From Microcella sp. (lineage in GTDB: Bacteria; Actinomycetota; Actinomycetes; Actinomycetales; Microbacteriaceae): a DNA stretch of 48,389 bases. The translations under genes and the position numbers were made by a program. Where the stretch lies: contig JAOASR010000084.1 in NCBI GenBank assembly GCA_030158585.1, positions 1 to 48,389 on the forward strand, read 5' to 3'. Under the pieces are notes generated by a model. The model saw only the letters and a program-made list of their open reading frames with translations. It searched no databases and had not been told where the DNA came from. Positions 1 to 25,112 of the stretch are shown piece after piece; position 1 is the first letter of the stretch; the number at the start of each line of letters is the position of its first letter.

Positions 1-281
1 TCTGGCTCACCGAGCTCATGGAGCGCGATGGGGTGGATGCTCTCGCCGCACTGCTGTCGGAGTCGCAGGCCCGCGTGCTCGTGTCGGTGGCCCGCGAGGA
101 CGACGTGAAGTTCCGCGGCCTGTGCGAGGGGCGCGACGTGCCCGTGCTGCGCATCGGCGTGACCGATGCCGAGGTCGACGGCCTCGAGATCCAGGACCGC
201 TTCACGCTCACGCACGCCGAGCTGCGCTACGCGCACCGGTCGACGCTGCCCGAGCGGTTCGGGGCGGTCGTCGGGGGCTAG
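1..281 (+). CDS. purL: Phosphoribosylformylglycinamidine synthase subunit PurL, C-terminal fragment (5' truncated by window edge)
   Basis: Open frame from the window edge; ALLSESQARVLVSV..., VPVLRIGVTD... and LTHAELRYAHRSTLPERFG match the PurL C-terminus. Confidence 0.82.
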   Translation, partial: WLTELMERDGVDALAALLSESQARVLVSVAREDDVKFRGLCEGRDVPVLRIGVTDAEVDGLEIQDRFTLTHAELRYAHRSTLPERFGAVVGG

Positions 282-284
282 GCG

Positions 285-1334
285 TCAGCGCTCTTTGCTG
301 AGGCGCAGGGGCGAGATCCGCGCGAGCGGCGCGAGGCCTATCGCGGCGATCGACCACCATGTCGCGCCGACGACGAGCGCCCCCGCCGCGGTCGTCACGC
401 CGCTCACGAGCCATGGGCTGAGGAGCAGCGCCGCGGTCACCCCCGAGACCGCGGCGACCCCCGCGAGCGCGAGACTCTCGAGGCCGAGGATCGCGGTGAG
501 CTCTCTCGGTCGCGTACCGGAGAGACGGTAGGCGGCGAACTCCGACAGGCGCGTCGCGCCGAGCGCGATCGTCGCGAGACCGGCGATGACGCCCATCACG
601 AGCGGCACCCAGCGGGTCGGGCGCTGCAGGAACTGCTCGGTCGCGTCGAGCGGCTGCGCGAGCACGGGCGTCGCGACGGGAAGCGGGCCCGAGACCGTGA
701 GAGCCCCGAGCGCCGCGCCAGCGACCGTCGCCAGTGAGACGCCCTGCTCGGTCACCACGATGCATCGGTCGATCTCGCGCACACTGTCGGCGATGGGCAC
801 GGCGAGCGCGCGGTCGAGCGGGATGCCCTCGGGCTGGTTCGACCCGAGCGCCGACGTCAGCACCGCGCCGGTATCGAGGCGCTCGATGCGCTCGGCTCGG
901 CTCGCGAGGTCGGCACCGACGACCGCGTCGGCGAGGGCCAGCTCGGGCAGCAGGCTGGGGCTCGTCGGCACGACCGCGACAGCCGGGCCGAGCGGAAGCA
1001 CCGCCGTGCGCGTCGATGCGAGCAGCGCCCCGGCGCGCTCGATTCCCGGCAGCTCAGCGAGTCTCTCGCAGGAGGCGCGCTCGATGGCGACCGGCCGCTC
1101 GGCCGAACCGGCCAGCACGACGACGCGAGCACCGGCCTCGTCGAGCGCGGCGCGGTCGCGCTCGAGCCCGATCGCTTCGAGACCCCCTACTGCGGCGAGC
1201 GCCGGGCCGACCAGCACTGCCACCACGAGCAGCGGCCTCAACCGCCGCGAGGTGCGCACCGACTGCAGCGCCTCGCGCGCGAGAAGGGGGAGGCGCCAGC
1301 CGCGCTCGCCCGTCGCCACGTCGGTGTCGTTCAT
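285..1334 (-). CDS. ABC transporter permease, FtsX/MacB-like with large extracytoplasmic domain
   Basis: Start at MNDTDVATGERG; N-terminal TM, ~200-aa ectodomain, 3 C-terminal TMs; ATGA overlap (1331-1334) with the upstream ATPase gene. Confidence 0.75.
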   Translation of the reverse strand: MNDTDVATGERGWRLPLLAREALQSVRTSRRLRPLLVVAVLVGPALAAVGGLEAIGLERDRAALDEAGARVVVLAGSAERPVAIERASCERLAELPGIERAGALLASTRTAVLPLGPAVAVVPTSPSLLPELALADAVVGADLASRAERIERLDTGAVLTSALGSNQPEGIPLDRALAVPIADSVREIDRCIVVTEQGVSLATVAGAALGALTVSGPLPVATPVLAQPLDATEQFLQRPTRWVPLVMGVIAGLATIALGATRLSEFAAYRLSGTRPRELTAILGLESLALAGVAAVSGVTAALLLSPWLVSGVTTAAGALVVGATWWSIAAIGLAPLARISPLRLSKER

Positions 1335-1969
1335 GCCGCATCGCTGCGGTGGCTCAGCGCCCTCACATCGATGACGCGATCGCACGCCTCCATCACGATC
1401 GGATCGTGCGTCGCCACGACGATGAGCCGATCGCGCGCGAGGTCGCGCAGGCGTGCGCAGAGCATCCGCGTGTTCGCCTCGTCGAGGCTCGCCGTCGGCT
1501 CATCCGCGAGGATGACGGGGCGCTCAGCCGCGAGAGCCCGTGCGAACGCGAGCCGCTGCAGCTCGCCGCCGCTGAGCGTGCGCGCCGCCTGAACGCGGCG
1601 GTGTTCGAGGCCCATCACGACGAGGCGGTTCTCAGCATCGGCGACGGCGTCGGCGAGCCCCGCACCGCGACCGAGGGCTCCCAGCATGACGTTGTCGAGC
1701 GCCGACCGATCGGGCAGCGCGTTGGCCGCCTGCGACACCCAGCTGAATGACGGCAGGCGCGGATGCTCAACGCCTGTTCCCGCATCGACCACCATCGCGC
1801 CCGATGCCAGGGGCACCGCGCCCGCGAGCGCGCCGAGCAGCGTGGTCTTGCCGCTGCCCGACGGTCCGGCGAGCGCGACGATCGCCGGGCCGTCGATCGT
1901 GGTCGTGATCGGGCCGACCGCGACCACATCGCCGAAGGCGACCGTGACCTCACTCAGGCGGATGCGCAT
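1331..1969 (-). CDS. ABC transporter ATP-binding protein (LolD/MacB type)
   Basis: Walker A GPSGSGKTT, signature LSGGELQR, Walker B VILADEPT, H-loop ATHD. Confidence 0.92.
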   Translation of the reverse strand: MRIRLSEVTVAFGDVVAVGPITTTIDGPAIVALAGPSGSGKTTLLGALAGAVPLASGAMVVDAGTGVEHPRLPSFSWVSQAANALPDRSALDNVMLGALGRGAGLADAVADAENRLVVMGLEHRRVQAARTLSGGELQRLAFARALAAERPVILADEPTASLDEANTRMLCARLRDLARDRLIVVATHDPIVMEACDRVIDVRALSHRSDAA

Positions 1970-3075
1970 GAGCGGCCCGAGGGAAGGCGCGTCGCGTCGG
2001 CGACGACGGTGGCGCCGGCCAGGTCGGCGTCGACGGCGGTGAGTGCCGCGGCGCCGGAAAGGGGCTCGGCGATGTCGAGCGCGCGGGGCTCCGCGTCGGC
2101 GAGCGCGGTGGCATCATCGCGGCCGGCCGAGTCGGCCGGTACGACGAAGATGCACCGGCGCCCCTCCTGGTCGAGCAGCACCGCAGCCGTGGGCAGCGTC
2201 GCCGACACCTCGGGCGCGGCGAGCGCGAGCGATACCGAGCCGTACCGCAGCTCGTCATCCTCGGCGACGATCGTCGCCGCACCTGCGCCGACGGCCTCGT
2301 CGAGCGCCGCGACGATCGCGCGTGCGGCGTCGCCCTCGATCGTTCCGGGCACGACGGGCAGGGCATCCGCGCCGACGATCAGCACCGTCTCGGCGTCGCC
2401 GTAGTCGAACAGCGGCTGATCGCTCACCGAGGCGAAGCCGAGACGGACGACCGTGTCGGCGCCGACCGCGAGGGGCCCGCTCACGGCGATGCGATCGCCG
2501 ACGGCGAGCGGTGTGCTCGTCAGCTCGGTGACCGCTGCCGGAACGAACGCCGTCGACGACACCCGGAAGACTCCGTCGCGGGGTAGACCCGCGTCGGCGT
2601 TCCACGCGTCGATCGCCCGCCTCAGCGCGAACGAGTAAGCGTCGGCCGGGGCCTCGCCGACGTCGTAGCCGGTCGCCGCCAGCAGTTCCCGCACGCGCCC
2701 GACATCCGGGCCGCGGGATCCGGGGGCGACGTCGCGCACGATGGGCGCCGCGCCCGTCTGGGCGCGAATCAGCGCGTCATCGACCCGGGCGAGGGGCATG
2801 CCCGCGGTGACCGCGGCCGGGGTCCTCACCTCGACCGCGGTCACCAGTCCATCGATGCGTGCAGCGACCACCTCGCCCGGCTGACGCTCGACGATGACCG
2901 CGACGGGCTGTCGTCGATCATCGGTCTGACTGCCGACCGTGACGAGCAGCGGGCCCGGCTCGGTGACAGCCGCGCGCTCGAGCGTCGACTGCAGCGTCAG
3001 TGCTCCCGCGAGCAGCAGCACGGGCGTGGCCCACAGTGCGACGAGCAGCAGGGCGAAGCGGCCGTCGCGCCTCAC
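1954..3075 (-). CDS. Periplasmic adaptor (HlyD/MacA-like) with peptidoglycan-binding domain
   Basis: N-terminal TM; VVAARIDGLVTAVEV lipoyl-like segment; PG-binding-like GPDVGRVRELLAATGYDVG...FALRRAIDAWNADAGLPRDGVF; overlaps neighbours at both ends. Confidence 0.72.
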   Translation of the reverse strand: MRRDGRFALLLVALWATPVLLLAGALTLQSTLERAAVTEPGPLLVTVGSQTDDRRQPVAVIVERQPGEVVAARIDGLVTAVEVRTPAAVTAGMPLARVDDALIRAQTGAAPIVRDVAPGSRGPDVGRVRELLAATGYDVGEAPADAYSFALRRAIDAWNADAGLPRDGVFRVSSTAFVPAAVTELTSTPLAVGDRIAVSGPLAVGADTVVRLGFASVSDQPLFDYGDAETVLIVGADALPVVPGTIEGDAARAIVAALDEAVGAGAATIVAEDDELRYGSVSLALAAPEVSATLPTAAVLLDQEGRRCIFVVPADSAGRDDATALADAEPRALDIAEPLSGAAALTAVDADLAGATVVADATRLPSGRSCASA

Positions 3076-3515
3076 GGGGTGCCGCAGGTGGACTCGAGAC
3101 CGTTCTCCTGGATGATCCGCCAGTCACCCGCCGAGGTCCCGTCGGACTCGTACCCCAGCCCTTCGAGGCACTCGCGGATCAGGAGCGCGGTCTCGCTCGT
3201 ATCCTCGTTCGCCACCTGCCAGGCGGCGTCGATCGGCATGAACGGTGTGTAGCAGGTCTCCTCGGCGCCACTCTGCACGGCCTCACCGGGAATGGCGTAG
3301 TCGATGACCGTGCCGGAGTCATCGTTGATGATGACGCCGAACCCCTCCGCGTCCATGCAGTCGACGAACTCGGCGAACGCGGCGCGGTATTCGCTCTCGG
3401 TGACGGTGAGTGTCTCGATCGGCTCGGGTTGCTGCGCGCACCCAGCCACTGCACCGCAGGCGAGCACCGCAACGACGACGGCACGACCGGCCACAACGCG
3501 AAACGAATCATTCAT
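3072..3515 (-). CDS. Putative lipoprotein of unknown function
   Basis: Signal peptide with lipobox-like VAGC (after LACGA); four further Cys; TGATG overlap with upstream gene (3515) and 4-nt overlap with downstream gene. Confidence 0.7.
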   Translation of the reverse strand: MNDSFRVVAGRAVVVAVLACGAVAGCAQQPEPIETLTVTESEYRAAFAEFVDCMDAEGFGVIINDDSGTVIDYAIPGEAVQSGAEETCYTPFMPIDAAWQVANEDTSETALLIRECLEGLGYESDGTSAGDWRIIQENGLESTCGTP

Positions 3516-3877
3516 CAGTTCAGAATGGCGTAACTGGTCCCATTCATCAGCGTCCCGTTATGGTGGGTCGCCAGTTGGAGGTTCCCGGTGGAGCCCCGAT
3601 AGGCGCTCGCGCTGTTGTAAACCCACGATGTGTAGTAAGTCGGGCTTCCGGGATAGGTCTGGTACGTGACCCGAACGGACATGGTTCCGCAGTCGCCGAG
3701 GATCTCGGAGCTACGACCACCTGCGTTCTCGTAGTAGGTCGCGATTACCTGTGTGTTGTTGGAGCAGTTGTACGGCCTCGAGTAGTCGGCCCACGCCGCC
3801 GTCGGTATCGCGACGAGAGCCAGAGCTCCCGCCGAAGCAGCGGCCACGACAGCAGACAGCCGGTTGAGTTTGCGCAT
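3515..3877 (-). CDS. Small secreted two-cysteine protein, predicted mature ~90 aa (candidate bacteriocin or exported peptide)
   Basis: RBS GAAGGAG before ATG 3877; Sec signal MRKLNRLSAVVAAASAGALALVAIPTAAWA|DYSRPYNC; Cys in YNCSNN and GDCGTM; first gene of overlapping operon. Confidence 0.75.
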   Translation of the reverse strand: MRKLNRLSAVVAAASAGALALVAIPTAAWADYSRPYNCSNNTQVIATYYENAGGRSSEILGDCGTMSVRVTYQTYPGSPTYYTSWVYNSASAYRGSTGNLQLATHHNGTLMNGTSYAILN

Positions 3878-3940
3878 GTGATCTCCTTCGATCTGATCGC
3901 AGTGAAGCTGAGGGGACCCCAGCAATCAGAGTCAATGGCA

Positions 3941-3956
3941 GACAGACTGGTCTGTC
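3941..3956. promoter_or_regulatory. TetR-like operator GACAGAC-TG-GTCTGTC overlapping -35 TTGACA (minus strand 3953-3958) of the secreted-peptide operon
   Basis: 7-bp perfect inverted arms with 2-bp spacer; adjoining TTGACA reads towards the peptide gene. Confidence 0.55.
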
Positions 3957-4019
3957 AACGACCGTTTTGTTCCACATTCCCGAAAATCGCTGGAACCGTC
4001 CGCCGCTAGGCTCGCGCTC

Positions 4020-6530
4020 GTGACAAGCATCACCGGGCTCAGCCGCGCCGACGTGCGCGAGCGACGCGACCGCGGTGAGATCAACACGCTGCCCAACGAC
4101 ACGGGCCGCTCGCTCTGGCGCATCCTGCAGGCCAACCTCTTCACGCTCTTCAACGCGATCGTCGGCGGCAGCTTCCTCGTGCTGCTCGCCCTCGGCTACT
4201 GGCAGGATGCCCTCTTCGGCTTCTTCGTCATCGCCAACGTCGCCATCGGGGTCGCGCAAGAGTTCCGGGCCAAGGTGACGCTCAGCCGGCTGGCGGTGCT
4301 CAACGCTCCGCGGGCGAGGGTGTTGCGCCGAGCATCCGACGACCATGCCGGCGAGGTCGACGAGGTCGCCATCGCCGACGTCGTGCTCGACGACGTTCTC
4401 GTGCTCGCCGCCGGAGACCAGGTCGTCGCCGACGCCGTCGTGCTGCAGTCGTCCGGGCTCGACGTCGACGAGTCGCTGCTGACCGGCGAGGCCGACCCCG
4501 TGCCGTCGCCCGCGGGCCGCGAGCTGCTGTCGGGGTCGACGGTCGTGGGTGGCAGCGGGCTCGCGCGGGTGATCCGCGTCGGCGCCGACTCGTATGCGAG
4601 CCGCATCACGGCCGAGGCGAAGCAGTTCTCGCTCGTCGGCAGCGAGCTGCGCGACTCGATCGCGCGCATCATCCGCTGGATCAGCATCGGCCTGCTGCCG
4701 GTCGGCGCGATCGTCGTCAACGGGCAGATGCAGGCGGTCGGCGGGTGGTCCGTTGCGCTCGAGTCGGGGGCGTGGCGCGAGGCGGTCGTCGCGGCGACCG
4801 CGAGCATCATCGCGATGGTGCCGCAGGGCCTCGTGTTCATGACCTCGGTCGCGCTCGCCGTCGGCGCGGTGAAGCTGTCGCGCCGCGAGGTGCTCGTGCA
4901 GGAGCTCGCCGCCGTCGAAGGCCTCGCCCGCGTCGACATGCTCTGCCTCGACAAGACGGGCACGCTCACCGAGGGAGGGCTGGCGCTCGCCGACGTCGAG
5001 GACGCGCCGGGTGCGGCCTCGGACGAGGCGCTGCGCGCGGCGCGGGATGCTGCGCTCGCCTGCTTCGCGGACGATCGCGACGCGAACGCCACGGCCCGCG
5101 CACTCGGCGAGCGCTTCGGTGCGCGCGGGGGTTCAGCCTCCGCTGCCGCGGTCGAGCCGTCCTTCGCCGGGGCGGCGCCAACCCTCACCGCACTGCCGGC
5201 GATCGTGGCGCGCGTGCCGTTCTCCTCCCTGCGCAAGTGGAGCGCCGCGCAGCTCGCCGACCCCGCCGGCAGCTGGCTGCTCGGCGCCCCCGACATCGTG
5301 CTCGCGTCGTCGACGGGCGAGGCGGTCGACGCCACGCTCGCGCGGTGCCGCGAGCTCGCCGCGAGCGGCCTGCGCACGCTCGTGCTCGCGCGCTCGAGCG
5401 CCCCGCTCACGACGGCGGCCGGTGACGGAGCCGACGAGCACGGGGTGATCGAGGCGCGCGAGGCCGCCCTCCCTGCCGGGCTCGAGCCGGTCGCCGTCGT
5501 CACGTTCCGCGAGCGGGTGCGGGCGGATGCGCACGAGACGCTGCAGTACTTCCGCGAGCAGGGAGTGAGCATCCGCATCATCTCGGGCGACGACCCGCGA
5601 ACGGTCGCCGCCGTCGCGCGCGAGGCGGGCGTCGACCACGTCGGCGACGGCTTCGACGCGCGACAGCTGCCCGAGGGAGTCGCCGAGCTCGACGACGTCA
5701 TGGCGCGCGAGCACGTCTTCGGCCGCGTCACCCCCGAGCAGAAGAAGGCGATGGTGAAGTCGCTGCAGCGGCTCGGCTACACGGTCGCGATGACGGGCGA
5801 CGGCGTCAACGACGCGCTCGCGCTCAAGCACGCCGACATGGGCATCGCGATGGGGTCGGGGGCGCCGGCGACGCGGGCGGTCGCGCGCCTCGTGCTGCTC
5901 GACGGGCAGTTCAGTCGGCTGCCGCGCATCGTCGCCGAGGGGCGGCAGGTGATCGCGAACGTCGAGCGGCTGGCGAAGCTGTTCCTGTCGAAGACGGTCT
6001 ACGCGATCCTGTTCGCGGTCGTGTTCGGGGCGCTGCTGTGGCCGTTCCCGTTCCTGCCGCGGCAGCTGTCGATCGTCGACGGGCTCACGATCGGTCTGCC
6101 CGCGATCGTGCTCGCCCTGCTGCCCAACGCGCGCGTCTGCCGCCCCGGATTCCTGCGTCGAGCAGCGCGGTTCTGCATTCCGTCGGGCGTGCTCGTCGCC
6201 GCGACCGTCATCGGCGTGGTCGCCTACGCGCACGCGTTCGTGGATGCTCCCGCCGACGAAGTGCAGACGACCGCGGTGATCACGCTCACGCTCTCGGCGC
6301 TGTGGGTGCTCGTGATCCTCGCGCGGCCGCTGTCGCGCGTGACGCTGCCGATCGTGCTCGCCGCGTACGCCGGGCTCGTCGTCGTGCTGTCGATCCCGGT
6401 CGCGACCGACTTCCTGCAGCTCGCGGCGCCCCCGCCGACCGACCTGCTCGTCGTCGCGCTCGGAGCGTCGCTCGCGTGCTCGCTCGCCCTCGAGGTGCTG
6501 CACCGGCTGATCGCGCGCTCGACGCGCTGA
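4020..6530 (+). CDS. Cation-translocating P-type ATPase (CtpE-like)
   Basis: DKTGTLT phosphorylation motif, SLLTGE, MTGDGVNDALALKHADMGIAMGSG hinge, multiple TMs; GTG start. Confidence 0.92.
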   Translation: MTSITGLSRADVRERRDRGEINTLPNDTGRSLWRILQANLFTLFNAIVGGSFLVLLALGYWQDALFGFFVIANVAIGVAQEFRAKVTLSRLAVLNAPRARVLRRASDDHAGEVDEVAIADVVLDDVLVLAAGDQVVADAVVLQSSGLDVDESLLTGEADPVPSPAGRELLSGSTVVGGSGLARVIRVGADSYASRITAEAKQFSLVGSELRDSIARIIRWISIGLLPVGAIVVNGQMQAVGGWSVALESGAWREAVVAATASIIAMVPQGLVFMTSVALAVGAVKLSRREVLVQELAAVEGLARVDMLCLDKTGTLTEGGLALADVEDAPGAASDEALRAARDAALACFADDRDANATARALGERFGARGGSASAAAVEPSFAGAAPTLTALPAIVARVPFSSLRKWSAAQLADPAGSWLLGAPDIVLASSTGEAVDATLARCRELAASGLRTLVLARSSAPLTTAAGDGADEHGVIEAREAALPAGLEPVAVVTFRERVRADAHETLQYFREQGVSIRIISGDDPRTVAAVAREAGVDHVGDGFDARQLPEGVAELDDVMAREHVFGRVTPEQKKAMVKSLQRLGYTVAMTGDGVNDALALKHADMGIAMGSGAPATRAVARLVLLDGQFSRLPRIVAEGRQVIANVERLAKLFLSKTVYAILFAVVFGALLWPFPFLPRQLSIVDGLTIGLPAIVLALLPNARVCRPGFLRRAARFCIPSGVLVAATVIGVVAYAHAFVDAPADEVQTTAVITLTLSALWVLVILARPLSRVTLPIVLAAYAGLVVVLSIPVATDFLQLAAPPPTDLLVVALGASLACSLALEVLHRLIARSTR

Positions 6531-6574
6531 ACGCGCGGGCGCCGGGCGCACCCTCGAGCCCTCGAGGGCGGCAG

Positions 6575-6618
6575 TTCGGTGTGACGGCGCCACATCGATG
6601 TGCCGCCCTGACACCGAA
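6575..6618. repeat. REP-like palindrome copy 1 (TTCGGTGT...CACATCGATGTG...ACACCGAA)
   Basis: 44-bp imperfect palindrome centred on CACATCGATGTG. Confidence 0.6.
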
Positions 6619-6717
6619 TCGCAGCCCCAGCCCCAGCCCGGCCCGTAGCCCTAGCCGCATCCCCAGCCGCACCTCCAGCCCGCGAAGCGCGGCGGCCTGC
6701 GTACATGTGCGCCACTC

Positions 6718-6757
6718 CGGTGAGAGTGCGCCGCATCGATGTGCCGCACATCCACCG
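6718..6757. repeat. REP-like palindrome copy 2 (CGGTGA...GCATCGATGTGC...CCACCG)
   Basis: Imperfect palindrome sharing the GCCGC(A)CATCGATGTGCCGC core with copy 1. Confidence 0.55.
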
Positions 6758-6846
6758 AACCGCCGCACTCGCGACCGCCGACGCCCCGCGGCCGCGGGCC
6801 GCACCCGAGCCCCCCGCAGAACCCGCGCCGAGCATCCGCCCGCATG

Positions 6847-6885
6847 ACGGAGGGCCCTCACCACCACCCGGTGAGGGCCCTCCGT
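6847..6885. terminator. Bidirectional hairpin terminator between convergent genes
   Basis: ACGGAGGGCCCTCACC-ACCACCC-GGTGAGGGCCCTCCGT: 16-bp perfect stem, 7-nt loop. Confidence 0.75.
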
Positions 6886-6945
6886 GTCGTTGCGGGGCGG
6901 GCGGACCAGGCTTCCGCCCGCCCCGAACCCTGTGCCGCGCAGCTC

Positions 6946-8559
6946 CTAGTGCGCGACCGACTTCTCGGCGCCGACGCCCGTGAGCGACCGCACCTCCATC
7001 TCGGTCTGCTTCGCGATGTCCTCCGTGCCGCGATCGAGCACCGACCCGAGCCAGCCGAGGAAGAAGGCGAGCGGGATCGACACGATTCCGGGGTTCGACA
7101 GCGGGAAGATCGAGAAGTCGACTCCCTGCAGCATCGATTTCTCGCCGCCCGACACGACGGGCGACAGCGAGATGAGGATGATCGCCGAAGCCAGCCCGCC
7201 GTACATGCTCCAGAGCGCGCCCTGGGTCGTGAACTTCTTCCAGAACAGCGAGTAGACGATCGTCGGCAGGTTCGCTGAGGCTGCGACGGCGAAGGCGAGC
7301 GCGACGAGGAACGCCACGTTCTGACCGTTCGCGCCGATGCCGCCGATGATCGCGACGATGCCGATGACGACGACCGTGCGGCGGGCGACCTTGACCTCCA
7401 TGCCGGGGCCGGGGTTGCCCTTCTTCACGACGCTCGCGTAGATGTCGTGCGAGAACGACGCCGCCGCGGTGATCGTCAGGCCGGCGACGACCGCGAGGAT
7501 CGTCGCGAACGCGACCGCCGAGATGATGCCGAGCAGCACCGATCCGCCGAGCTCGAAGGCGAGCAGCGGGGCGGCCGAGTTGGGTCCGCCGGGCGCGGCG
7601 GCGATGCGCTCGGCACCGATGAGGGCGGATGCTCCGTACCCCAGCACGAGCGTGAACAGGTAGAAGATGCCGATGAGCCAGATCGCCCACACGACGCTCT
7701 TGCGGGCCTCCTTCGCCGTCGGCACCGTGTAGAAGCGCATGAGCACGTGCGGCAGAGCCGCGGTGCCGAGCACGAGCGCGAGGCCGAGCGAGAGGAAGTC
7801 GAGGCGCGTGATGTCGCTGAGCCCGTACTGCAGACCCGGGGCGAGCACGGCGGGGTTGCCCGACTTCTCGACGGCCGCGTCGAGCAGCGTCGAGAGGTTG
7901 AAGCCGTTGATCGCGAGCACCCAGATCGTCATGACGCCGGCGCCCGCGATGAGCAGGCCCGCCTTGATGATCTGCACCCACGTGGTGCCCTTCATGCCGC
8001 CGACGAGCACGTAGAGGATCATGAGCGCGCCGACGACGGCGATGACGACCGACTGGCCGATGCGGTCGTTGATGCCGAGCAGCAGGGCGACGAGACCGCC
8101 GGCTCCCGCCATCTGGGCGAGCAGGTAGAAGAAGCAGACGACGAGCGTCGAGATCGCCGCGGCGATGCGCACCGGCCGCTGCTTCAGGCGGAAGGCCAGC
8201 ACGTCGGCCATCGTGAACTTGCCCGTGTTGCGCAGCAGCTCGGCGACGAGCAGCAGGGCGACGACCCACGCGACGAGGAACCCGATCGAGTAGAGGAACC
8301 CGTCGTAGCCGTTGATCGCGATCGCCCCAACGATGCCGAGGAACGACGCCGCCGAGAGGTAGTCACCCGCGATCGCCGAGCCGTTCTGACCGCCCGTGAA
8401 CGAGCGGCCGGCGGCGTAGTAGTCGGCGGCGGTCTTGTTGTTCCGCGAGGCGCGGAACACGATGATCATCGTGATCGCAACGAAGACGCCGAAGATCGCG
8501 ATGTTGAGGATGGGGTCGCCCGGCGCGGCCGGTGGGGCGGTAGCAGCGAGGTGCAGCAT
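6946..8559 (-). CDS. Sodium:solute symporter family, cation/acetate symporter-like
   Basis: TAADYYAAGRSFTGGQNGSAIAGDYLSAASFLGIVGAIAINGYDGFLYSIGF; ~13 TMs. Confidence 0.92.
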   Translation of the reverse strand: MLHLAATAPPAAPGDPILNIAIFGVFVAITMIIVFRASRNNKTAADYYAAGRSFTGGQNGSAIAGDYLSAASFLGIVGAIAINGYDGFLYSIGFLVAWVVALLLVAELLRNTGKFTMADVLAFRLKQRPVRIAAAISTLVVCFFYLLAQMAGAGGLVALLLGINDRIGQSVVIAVVGALMILYVLVGGMKGTTWVQIIKAGLLIAGAGVMTIWVLAINGFNLSTLLDAAVEKSGNPAVLAPGLQYGLSDITRLDFLSLGLALVLGTAALPHVLMRFYTVPTAKEARKSVVWAIWLIGIFYLFTLVLGYGASALIGAERIAAAPGGPNSAAPLLAFELGGSVLLGIISAVAFATILAVVAGLTITAAASFSHDIYASVVKKGNPGPGMEVKVARRTVVVIGIVAIIGGIGANGQNVAFLVALAFAVAASANLPTIVYSLFWKKFTTQGALWSMYGGLASAIILISLSPVVSGGEKSMLQGVDFSIFPLSNPGIVSIPLAFFLGWLGSVLDRGTEDIAKQTEMEVRSLTGVGAEKSVAH

Positions 8560-8918
8560 CAGCGCACGCCTTCCTTGGTCTCAAGACGGTCGCGGATGGC
8601 CGCGGCGTCGGGGTCGAGGTGCTTGTTGGCGTACGAGACATAGACCATCGTCACGATGAACGTCGTCGCCACCTGGGCGAGGCCCAGCAGGATGCCGATG
8701 TTGACGCTTCCGAAGACGGGCGTCGCCATGAAGTCGGGCGCGTAGCCCGCGAGCAGCACGTAGGCGAAGTACCAGAGCAGGCACGCCGCGGTCACCGGCA
8801 GCACGAAGCTGCGGTGCTTGCGCTTGAGGCGGCGGAACTGCTCCGACTCCTGGGTCTCTCTGAACACTGCGGCCGTTTGGCCGGACGAGTGCTCCACGTT
8901 CAGGGCGTCGTTGCCCAT
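8559..8918 (-). CDS. DUF485 domain-containing membrane protein
   Basis: RBS GAGGAG before ATG 8918; RRLKRKHRSFVLPVTAACLLWYFAYVLLAGYAPDFM...; adjacent to symporter gene. Confidence 0.88.
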   Translation of the reverse strand: MGNDALNVEHSSGQTAAVFRETQESEQFRRLKRKHRSFVLPVTAACLLWYFAYVLLAGYAPDFMATPVFGSVNIGILLGLAQVATTFIVTMVYVSYANKHLDPDAAAIRDRLETKEGVR

Positions 8919-9145
8919 GGGGATCTCCTCGAGAGGTCGCGGCAGCGACGACGGCGACGCTGCCGATTCTGGTGGCGGAACGTGCGTCAGCATCCCCCCA
9001 TCGAGGGCCAGCGTCATCGGGATGCGCGTTCGTCGTCGGTGGGCGGCGTGGCTCGTGCGACGAACGGCGCGGCGACCCTCGGGCGCGCGACCCCGGTGGC
9101 ACGTGAGACGCGCGCCGAGCATCCGCATCGCCTACCGTTGACCCG

Positions 9146-10369
9146 ATGACCGAGTCAGTGCTGCTCGCCCTCGCCGTCGGCGTGCTCGTGGGTATCGCCG
9201 CGGCGGTGCTGCTCGTCGTCGCGTGGCGCGTGATTCGGCTCTCGCGCGAGCTGGGCACGGCCGCCGAGCGCGCCACCTATTCGACGCTGCACCTCGCGAG
9301 CCAGGCGGCGACGCACGTGCGCGGAGGCCTCGACTCCGGCGACCCGCAGCGCGCCGTGCGCCCCCTGCGGCAGCTGCTCGACTGCCGCGTGCTCGCCCTC
9401 GCCGACGACCATGGAGTGCTCGCGATCGACGCGGGCCCCGCCGACCAGCGCCTCGCCGAGCACTTGCGCGAGACCGCCGAGCGGCTCGCCGCCGAAGTGC
9501 GCGCGGGCGACAAGCCGCAGGTGTTCCGCGGCATCGACCCGACCGGCCGCGGGGTGCAGGCGACGGATGCCGTGGCCGCCCCGATCATCGCCGGTGACCG
9601 CACCGCGGGCGCGATCGTCGCCTTCTCACCCTCGGTGAAGCCGGGGCTCGTGCGCGCGACCGGCGAGGTCGCCGAGTGGGTCGCGGCGCAGCTCGAGCTC
9701 GCCGAGCTCGACGCGAGCCGCGCCGCCCTCGCCGAGGCCGAGGTCAAGGCGCTGCGCAGCCAGATCAGCCCGCACTTCATCTACAACGCCCTCACCGCCA
9801 TCGCCAGCACGATCACGACGAACCCGCCTCGGGCGCGCGACCTCGTGCTCGAGTTCGCCGACTTCACGCGGTACTCGTTCCGCCGGCAGGGCGACTTCAC
9901 GACCCTCGCCGACGAGCTGCGCAGCGTCGACTCGTACCTGCAGCTCGAGCGCGCGCGCTTCGGCGAGCGCCTCACCCTCACCCTGCAGGTCGCGCCCGAG
10001 GTGCTCAGCACGGTCATCCCGTTCCTCAGCGTGCAGCCGCTCGTCGAGAACGCCGTGCGGCACGGCCTCGAGCCCAAGCCCGACGGCGGCCGCATCACCA
10101 TTCGCGCGAGCGACGCGGGCGCGTTCGCGCTCATCGAGGTCGAAGACGACGGGGTCGGCATCGATCCCGAGCGCCTGCGGGGCATCCTCGCAGGGCGGCC
10201 GTCGGCCGACCACGTGGGGGTGCGCAATGTGGATGCCCGCCTCAGGCAGCTCTATGGGGACGAGCACGGCCTCGTGGTCGATACGAACCTCGATGCGGGC
10301 ACGCTCGTGCGCATGCGCGTGCCGAAGTCGCAGCCCCAGAACACGACGACCCCCAGTGCGAGGATGTGA
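9146..10369 (+). CDS. LytS/YpdA-type sensor histidine kinase
   Basis: LRSQISPHFIYNALTAIAS (His_kinase family), RFGERLTLTL, PLVENAVRHGL HATPase. Confidence 0.9.
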   Translation: MTESVLLALAVGVLVGIAAAVLLVVAWRVIRLSRELGTAAERATYSTLHLASQAATHVRGGLDSGDPQRAVRPLRQLLDCRVLALADDHGVLAIDAGPADQRLAEHLRETAERLAAEVRAGDKPQVFRGIDPTGRGVQATDAVAAPIIAGDRTAGAIVAFSPSVKPGLVRATGEVAEWVAAQLELAELDASRAALAEAEVKALRSQISPHFIYNALTAIASTITTNPPRARDLVLEFADFTRYSFRRQGDFTTLADELRSVDSYLQLERARFGERLTLTLQVAPEVLSTVIPFLSVQPLVENAVRHGLEPKPDGGRITIRASDAGAFALIEVEDDGVGIDPERLRGILAGRPSADHVGVRNVDARLRQLYGDEHGLVVDTNLDAGTLVRMRVPKSQPQNTTTPSARM

Positions 10370-24191: not shown

Positions 24192-25112
24192 ATGACGCCT
24201 GAGCCCGCCCCGCTCTGGCTCCCCGACTCCGCCGACCTGCTCATCCACGCCGACAACCTCAGTGCGATGCAGCGGATGCCCGACGCGAGCATGCGCATGG
24301 TCTACCTCGACCCGCCGTTCAACACGGGCCGCGCGCAGCTGCGCCGCACGACGAGCCACAGTCGAGCATCCGCCGCCCCGGCGGAGCCGGCCGCCGACGG
24401 AGCCGCCGCCAGCGCCCCCAGTGCCCCGACCCCCACCGCCTGGCAGGGCTTCGGCGGCGAGAACTACGTGCGCACCGTCGAGGCGCTCACCTCCTACGAC
24501 GACCGCTTCGCCGACTACTGGGCCTTCCTCGCCCCGCGATTGCAGGAGGCCCACCGCCTGCTCGACGACCGCGGCACCCTCTACCTGCACCTCGACTACC
24601 GCGAGGCGCACTACGCGAAGGTCGCGCTCGATGCGCTTTTCGGCCGCGACCACTTCCTCAACGAGATCATCTGGGCCTACGACTACGGGGCGAAGAGCCG
24701 CAGCCGGTGGCCGACGAAGCACGACACGATCCTCGTCTACGTGAAAGACCCCGACCGGTACCACTTCGACTCGACCGAGGTCGATCGCGAGCCGTACATG
24801 GCCCCGGGGCTCGTGACGCCCGAGAAGGCGGCGCGCGGCAAGCTCCCGACCGACGTCTGGTGGCACACGATCGTCGGCACGACGAGCCGCGAGAAGACCG
24901 GCTACCCCACGCAGAAGCCCGTCGGCATTCTGCGTCGCATGATCCAGGCCTCGACGGCCCCGGGCGACTGGGTTCTCGACCCCTTCGCCGGCAGCGGCAC
25001 GACGGCCGCGGCCGCGCGCGCCCTCGGGCGCCCCAGCGTGAGCATCGATGCCAGCGAGGATGCCGTGGCCGTGATCGAGCGCCGCCTCGCGCTCACTGCG
25101 CTTCGCCTCTGA
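24192..25112 (+). CDS. Site-specific DNA-methyltransferase (adenine-N6/cytosine-N4 type, beta-like motif order)
   Basis: Motif IV DPPFNTG N-terminal, TQKPVGILRRMIQASTAPGDWVLDPFAGSGTT motif I C-terminal. Confidence 0.9.
   Translation: MTPEPAPLWLPDSADLLIHADNLSAMQRMPDASMRMVYLDPPFNTGRAQLRRTTSHSRASAAPAEPAADGAAASAPSAPTPTAWQGFGGENYVRTVEALTSYDDRFADYWAFLAPRLQEAHRLLDDRGTLYLHLDYREAHYAKVALDALFGRDHFLNEIIWAYDYGAKSRSRWPTKHDTILVYVKDPDRYHFDSTEVDREPYMAPGLVTPEKAARGKLPTDVWWHTIVGTTSREKTGYPTQKPVGILRRMIQASTAPGDWVLDPFAGSGTTAAAARALGRPSVSIDASEDAVAVIERRLALTALRL

Follow-up and report, generated by a model that had tools for sequence, protein, structure and literature searches.

What function might have brought together five overlapping genes at one end of a Microcella sp. 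contig? The stretch analysed here, referred to as the window, comprises positions 1 to 48,389 of contig JAOASR010000084.1 (assembly GCA_030158585.1). The genes in question lie on its minus strand, running from position 3877 to 285, and encode in this order a predicted secreted protein with two cysteines (PEP), a lipoprotein (LIPO), an adaptor (ADAPT), an ATP-binding cassette (ABC) ATPase and a permease (PERM). The original prediction had likened this layout to a bacteriocin with an immunity/efflux ABC system. Our analysis makes it reasonably probable that these five genes were acquired as a bacteriocin operon, in which PEP would represent a new Sec-exported, probably wall-targeting family, LIPO a dedicated immunity protein and the MacB-like ABC set a second line of immunity. 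We favour this reading because homologous operons carry a lactococcin-972 peptide in the first position (slot 1), and we consider one of them, at locus L184, decisive. The earlier comparison thereby gains strong, if indirect, support; PEP, however, also occurs without the ABC and adaptor genes.

Lactococcin 972 is an unmodified bacteriocin that adopts a beta-sandwich fold and binds lipid II (PMC9964109). The two genes that accompany it are presumed to provide ABC-based immunity (PMC4055356), but what the B and C genes do in lactococcin-972 loci is without experimental verification (PMC11796350). Genomes were sampled for our survey (1990 genome searches), and the counts of operons and loci given throughout are lower bounds; genes of the relatives were obtained with a simple codon-usage caller together with six-frame hidden Markov model (HMM) searches. 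The lactococcin-972 profile PF09683 was found in 11 of the 248 genomes searched in the order to which Microcella belongs. Most of the PF09683 peptides with a recognisable partner stand beside an ABC ATPase outside the clade formed by the ATPases of the PEP operons, and the partners in locus L182 scored 79 bits with TIGR01654 and 208 bits with TIGR03608, both under the curated cut-offs. At L184 (genome G613, positions 5537-9216), the operon opens with a PF09683 peptide (34.1 bits, cut-off 22) and continues with LIPO, ADAPT, ATPase and PERM. When the PEP operon L086 was compared with L184 by BLASTP, the E-values were 1e-12 for LIPO, 2e-17 for ADAPT and 2e-38 for PERM. Moreover, in the ATPase tree, which has several long end branches and of which only the starred forks are usable, L184 is sister to L086 (100/98) inside the PEP-operon clade (95/89), and this clade lies apart from the ATPases that are canonical for lactococcin 972, linked to two-component systems or adjacent to other two-cysteine peptides. 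In such homologous operons PEP is replaced by a lactococcin-972 peptide. In locus L043 (G053), a PF09683 peptide (57.4 bits) likewise precedes LIPO and ADAPT; this locus was rejected as a complete operon, as it is without the ATPase and its PERM is split over two frames, and L184 is the intact case.

Genome G613 contains three such five-gene operons with three unlike slot-1 peptides, which would be reminiscent of bacteriocin arsenals. In addition to the lactococcin-972 peptide of L184, these are a PEP-patterned protein of 104 amino acids (L194, 5086-8780) and a four-cysteine protein of 150 amino acids (L195, 5027-8859), neither of which matched Pfam at cut-off. Further small secreted two-cysteine proteins without a Pfam match were observed at L042 (4477-4788), L048 (9291-9614), L049 (4019-4372 and 4597-4929) and L192 (7346-7777), where they adjoin ADAPT-ATPase-PERM operons of a clade that is related but stands apart.

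The PEP gene (3515-3877) starts with ATG, is preceded by the ribosome-binding site AAGGAG (3883-3888) and encodes 120 amino acids. In line with the product foreseen for it, a Sec-exported protein of about 90 residues with two cysteines, residues 1-30 (about 3788-3877) form a predicted signal peptide with a standard A-x-A site, and the mature protein would comprise about 90 amino acids (9.9 kDa, isoelectric point 6.9), including the two cysteines C38 and C63. Threonine, serine, asparagine, tyrosine and glycine together account for 57% of PEP, and its composition is that of a hydrophilic (grand average of hydropathy -0.57) and not of a membrane-active protein. The block encodes no modification enzyme. 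LIPO (3072-3515) was rightly described as a cysteine-rich lipoprotein: it carries the lipobox VAGC followed by four conserved cysteines, and is predicted to be the immunity partner of PEP. Neither protein matched a family in Pfam, NCBIfam or PADLOC searches; the search for a characterised family with another role thus yielded nothing for PEP in Pfam and NCBIfam, including any hydrolase domain in Pfam. LIPO, with its lipobox and its pairing with PEP, did not match a LanI family (Pfam, NCBIfam). The AlphaFold2 (AF2) model of LIPO has a core with a predicted local distance difference test (pLDDT) score of about 90, and a fold search against the PDB returned no match (best E 1.3). Searches for relatives on viral contigs, plasmids and phages gave none at significant E-values.

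An orphan LIPO lipoprotein was detected in congener G010 (L077, 5498-5836), which is without PEP; as a candidate orphan immunity gene it fits the expectation for an immunity protein. A LIPO-like domain was also observed at the C-terminal end of proteins that appear to be membrane-anchored and whose genes come immediately after genes resembling those for extracytoplasmic function (ECF) sigma factors (L075, 5107-6072, as well as L076, L080, L081, L083, L085 and L087); for L075, the sigma70 r2/r4 domains of the ECF-sigma-like gene were confirmed. This suggests that the domain may also serve in sensing or in an anti-sigma context.

The claim that the block overlaps at every junction held, since all five open reading frames (ORFs) and the four overlaps, in transcript order TGATG, GTGA, 16 nucleotides and ATGA, could be read directly. 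In GC-rich actinobacteria, overlapping gene junctions are by themselves commonplace. What goes beyond chance is the recurrence of the same gene order in distant genomes, with peptides 19-41% identical, together with the position of the block between genes that adjoin each other in congeners. Searching with the C-terminal part of purL (window 3-281) identified 24 congener loci, in 15 of which the P-type ATPase gene (window 4020-6530) lies less than 180 nucleotides from purL, and within 1 kb in two more; none of the five proteins was matched in these 15 and two loci. Homology to the closest congener locus, L138, ends at window position 283 and restarts at 4005, which delimits an accessory segment (284-4004) between purL and the P-type ATPase gene. 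None of the 25 congener genomes that were searched contains PEP. PERM, ATPase and ADAPT have a G+C content of 0.72-0.75, which compares with lower values of 0.66 for LIPO and 0.61 for PEP. Judged from these comparisons, the five-gene block is an insertion.

Two relatives indicate how such a block moves. In L124 (2736-11383) and L125 (2744-11383) the operon is cargo beside Tn7-like transposition genes: ahead of it lie genes resembling tnsA, tnsB and tniB/tnsC and a further ORF. Pfam supports the tnsA-, tnsB- (Mu-type transposase) and tniB/tnsC-like genes, with two of the three matches just under cut-off, and the further ORF is one that we take to be tniQ-like from its position. Between the two loci, DNA identity is 98-99.5% over the tniQ-like ORF and the operon, as compared to 94.5% for TnsC, 65% for TnsB and 67% for the sequence past the operon, which points to recent exchange of the tniQ-like ORF and the operon as one unit. 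A LIPO-ADAPT remnant was observed in L036 (G054, 5669-7546), where the adaptor is apparently interrupted by a transposase-like ORF.

The remaining three genes, encoding an adaptor, an ABC ATPase and an FtsX-like permease, fit a MacB-type system, with several matches below curated cut-offs. ADAPT (1954-3075, GTG start) possesses a membrane anchor and a weak match to RND adaptors (RND_mfp-like), a MacA-like feature. The peptidoglycan-binding module attributed to it (residues 121-169) is borne out by seven of nine ADAPT homologues that match PG_binding_1 (best 1.3e-10), whereas the match of the window protein, with 19.8 bits, stays below the Pfam cut-off of 23. The same applies to PERM (285-1334), predicted to be FtsX/MacB-like: three of six permeases match FtsX, but the window protein reaches 22.1 bits at a cut-off of 25.5. 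By eye, PERM consists of one N-terminal membrane helix and a C-terminal helix group with an extracytoplasmic domain in between, and it showed no match to TIGR01654. The ATPase (1331-1969) proved to be what it had been called, with a full ABC_tran match (2.3e-22) and intact Walker A (GPSGSGKTT), signature (LSGGE), Walker B (ILADEP) and H-loop (THD) motifs.

Such a complex might also serve envelope maintenance, responding to wall stress through its FtsX/MacB-like part and its peptidoglycan-binding adaptor, with PEP and LIPO as structural or regulatory surface subunits and without any antagonism. The peptidoglycan-binding modules of ADAPT would suit this function, as would the related ADAPT-ATPase-PERM sets that adjoin two-component systems in the same family, and the LIPO-like domains fused to ECF-sigma-linked membrane proteins. 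However, the two-component-linked ATPases belong to a separate clade, the operon is patchy, mobile and absent from most congeners, and homologous operons have a bacteriocin family in slot 1. We therefore regard a role in envelope maintenance as rather unlikely.

Including the window, nine complete operons with the same gene order were found in several families of the order. They are present in Agrococcus baldri (L034/L123; PEP 41% and LIPO 43% identical to those of the window), in G222 (L035, with a second PEP past PERM), in G147 (L086), in an uncultured Microbacterium (L124; L136 seems to represent this contig too) and in Microbacteriaceae bacterium PS02068 (L125), and, from other families, in G654 (L133), G538 (L134) and G473 (L193). 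The last of these reads PEP-LIPO-PEP-LIPO-ADAPT-ATPase-PERM; HMM support exists there for the first LIPO and PEP (the latter weak, 0.0012), and the second pair was read from the sequence. The stop and start codons overlap in several of the nine operons. That PEP is merely a lineage-specific small secreted protein which happens to stand beside an unrelated ABC operon, as lone PEP-like genes in G276 and G968 might suggest, is hardly credible, being already contradicted by this recurrence with homologous proteins in each slot.

Across the 15 PEP loci, the full set is present in nine, and an HMM-supported LIPO lies next door in 12. In G036, G348 and G407, three Herbiconiux-type genomes of which two are named, LIPO comes after PEP but there is no ABC set, and ADAPT matches elsewhere in these genomes are weak or lacking. 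In a second G473 locus (L135), PEP adjoins a cysteine-rich lipoprotein without HMM support, and G257 (L120) contains a weak PEP-like gene with LIPO, divergent from ADAPT-ATPase-PERM. Matches at L003 and L191 were judged to be due to chance, and peptide searches are insensitive at such divergence. As PEP homologues occur without the ABC and adaptor genes, the tightest partner of PEP is LIPO and not the ABC transporter, and PEP and LIPO behave as a cassette.

This closer pairing could also be expected if PEP served as a secreted cue that is received at the cell surface by LIPO, with the ABC complex acting as a sensor or as a device for uptake or export. Signalling of this kind might likewise explain the perfect palindrome GACAGAC-CA-GTCTGTC (3941-3956), a candidate operator located about 65-80 nucleotides ahead of the PEP start, which we take to resemble a TetR-type operator, with no regulator adjoining. 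The palindrome is not kept in relatives, however, and was therefore rejected as a conserved operator; its core, ACAGACNNGTCTGT, has no further exact copy in the genome assembly, and a scan for sigma-70 promoters found none. Moreover, the gene calls for the window show no dedicated regulator within or beside the block, folded proteins of 90 residues rarely act as cues, and the lactococcin-972 peptide in the same slot speaks for antagonism, which renders peptide signalling improbable. Elsewhere in the window, an ORF at 24192-25112 contains a DPPF motif and looks like a DNA methyltransferase.

Several observations weigh against a bacteriocin operon. In agreement with the original prediction that PEP is not lactococcin 972, PEP has no match to the PF09683 or TIGR01653 profiles, and hhalign assigned the pair a probability of 0.1%, no better than a reversed control. 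The AF2 model of PEP, with a pLDDT of 40, is too poor for a fold comparison. The five genes, whose co-occurrence had been proposed as a check, do not always travel together: the three Herbiconiux genomes are without ABC and adaptor genes, and the PEP-like genes in G276 and G968 are without LIPO as well. Finally, given its presence in ECF-sigma-linked membrane proteins, the LIPO-like domain may sense something more general. The interpretation as a bacteriocin operon nevertheless appears to gain further support from the homology of LIPO, ADAPT and PERM together with the nesting of the L184 ATPase, from the three peptides of G613, the PEP-LIPO cassette, the orphan LIPO, the mobility of the block and the hydrophilic nature of PEP.

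According to this favoured interpretation, PEP would be exported by Sec and its signal peptide removed, giving a compact, disulphide-bonded, hydrophilic protein that acts on the envelope of close relatives and kills them, plausibly with cell-wall precursors as its target, like lactococcin 972. Anchored to the outer side of the membrane, LIPO would bind PEP as the dedicated immunity protein. ADAPT, ATPase and PERM may assemble into a MacB-like machine with the task of holding PEP away from the producer's own membrane or wall, a role comparable to that of LanFEG alongside LanI. Alternatively, LIPO alone might confer immunity to the bacteriocin, the ABC complex being its dedicated exporter or maturation device. 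NCBIfam labels the lactococcin-972 ABC protein a 'putative bacteriocin export' transporter (TIGR03608), to which the window ATPase scores 110 bits, below the cut-off of 254.85. Since PEP has its own Sec signal peptide and persists with LIPO alone in Herbiconiux, where the rest of the genome offers weak ADAPT matches at most, protection is a more probable role for the ABC set than export, and a dedicated exporter is quite doubtful.

More tentatively, and with less than even confidence, the operon might belong to a modular, mobile class of actinobacterial antagonism systems. Interchangeable Sec-exported wall-targeting proteins, either disulphide-containing (PEP and the other two- and four-cysteine families) or of the lactococcin-972 type, would here be combined with a common three-layer immunity platform, in which a surface lipoprotein cognate to the exported protein is joined by an adaptor anchored in peptidoglycan and by a MacB-like pump. 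A literature search limited to an open library found no description of this operon type. If the bacteriocin interpretation is true, Micrococcales would gain a family of secreted antibacterial proteins that had not been modelled before, and the operon would provide an immunity architecture that is directly testable, with natural PEP-LIPO pairs and a tandem cassette array that allow the roles of the lipoprotein and the ABC set to be separated genetically.

How does the operon compare with known systems? With MacAB and LolCDE it shares the adaptor, a LolD/MacB-like ATPase and an FtsX-like permease. However, the window derives from a monoderm, its adaptor is peptidoglycan-binding, its ATPase and permease are separate genes, the set is co-inherited with a secreted peptide and a lipoprotein, and MacB_PCD was not matched anywhere in the whole genome. 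As in FtsEX with its peptidoglycan-hydrolase partners, an FtsX-like permease and an ABC ATPase would act at the envelope, but the block is accessory and mobile instead of core, and PEP is not a recognisable hydrolase. Producers of lantibiotics are protected by LanI and LanFEG, and NisI with NisFEG provides a precedent for a lipoprotein acting beside a pump (PMC4828448). The window similarly encodes a surface lipoprotein and an ABC transporter alongside the putative toxin gene, although its product is a predicted Sec protein of about 90 residues, LIPO is no LanI by profile and inspection of the genes called in the window revealed no lantibiotic (lanthionine) biosynthesis genes. From lactococcin-972 loci (PF09683/TIGR01653 with TIGR01654 and TIGR03608; lcn972-orf2-orf3, scbABC) the window differs in that PEP shows no profile similarity to the bacteriocin, a lipoprotein, a peptidoglycan-binding adaptor and a short FtsX-like permease stand in place of the TIGR01654 protein, and the ATPase falls into a clade separate from the canonical ones. 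Yet both place a small, apparently unmodified protein with a predicted Sec signal peptide first and a dedicated ABC system after it, PEP is hydrophilic like Lcn972, and actinobacterial PF09683 peptides fill the first slot of operons whose four other genes are homologous to those of the window.

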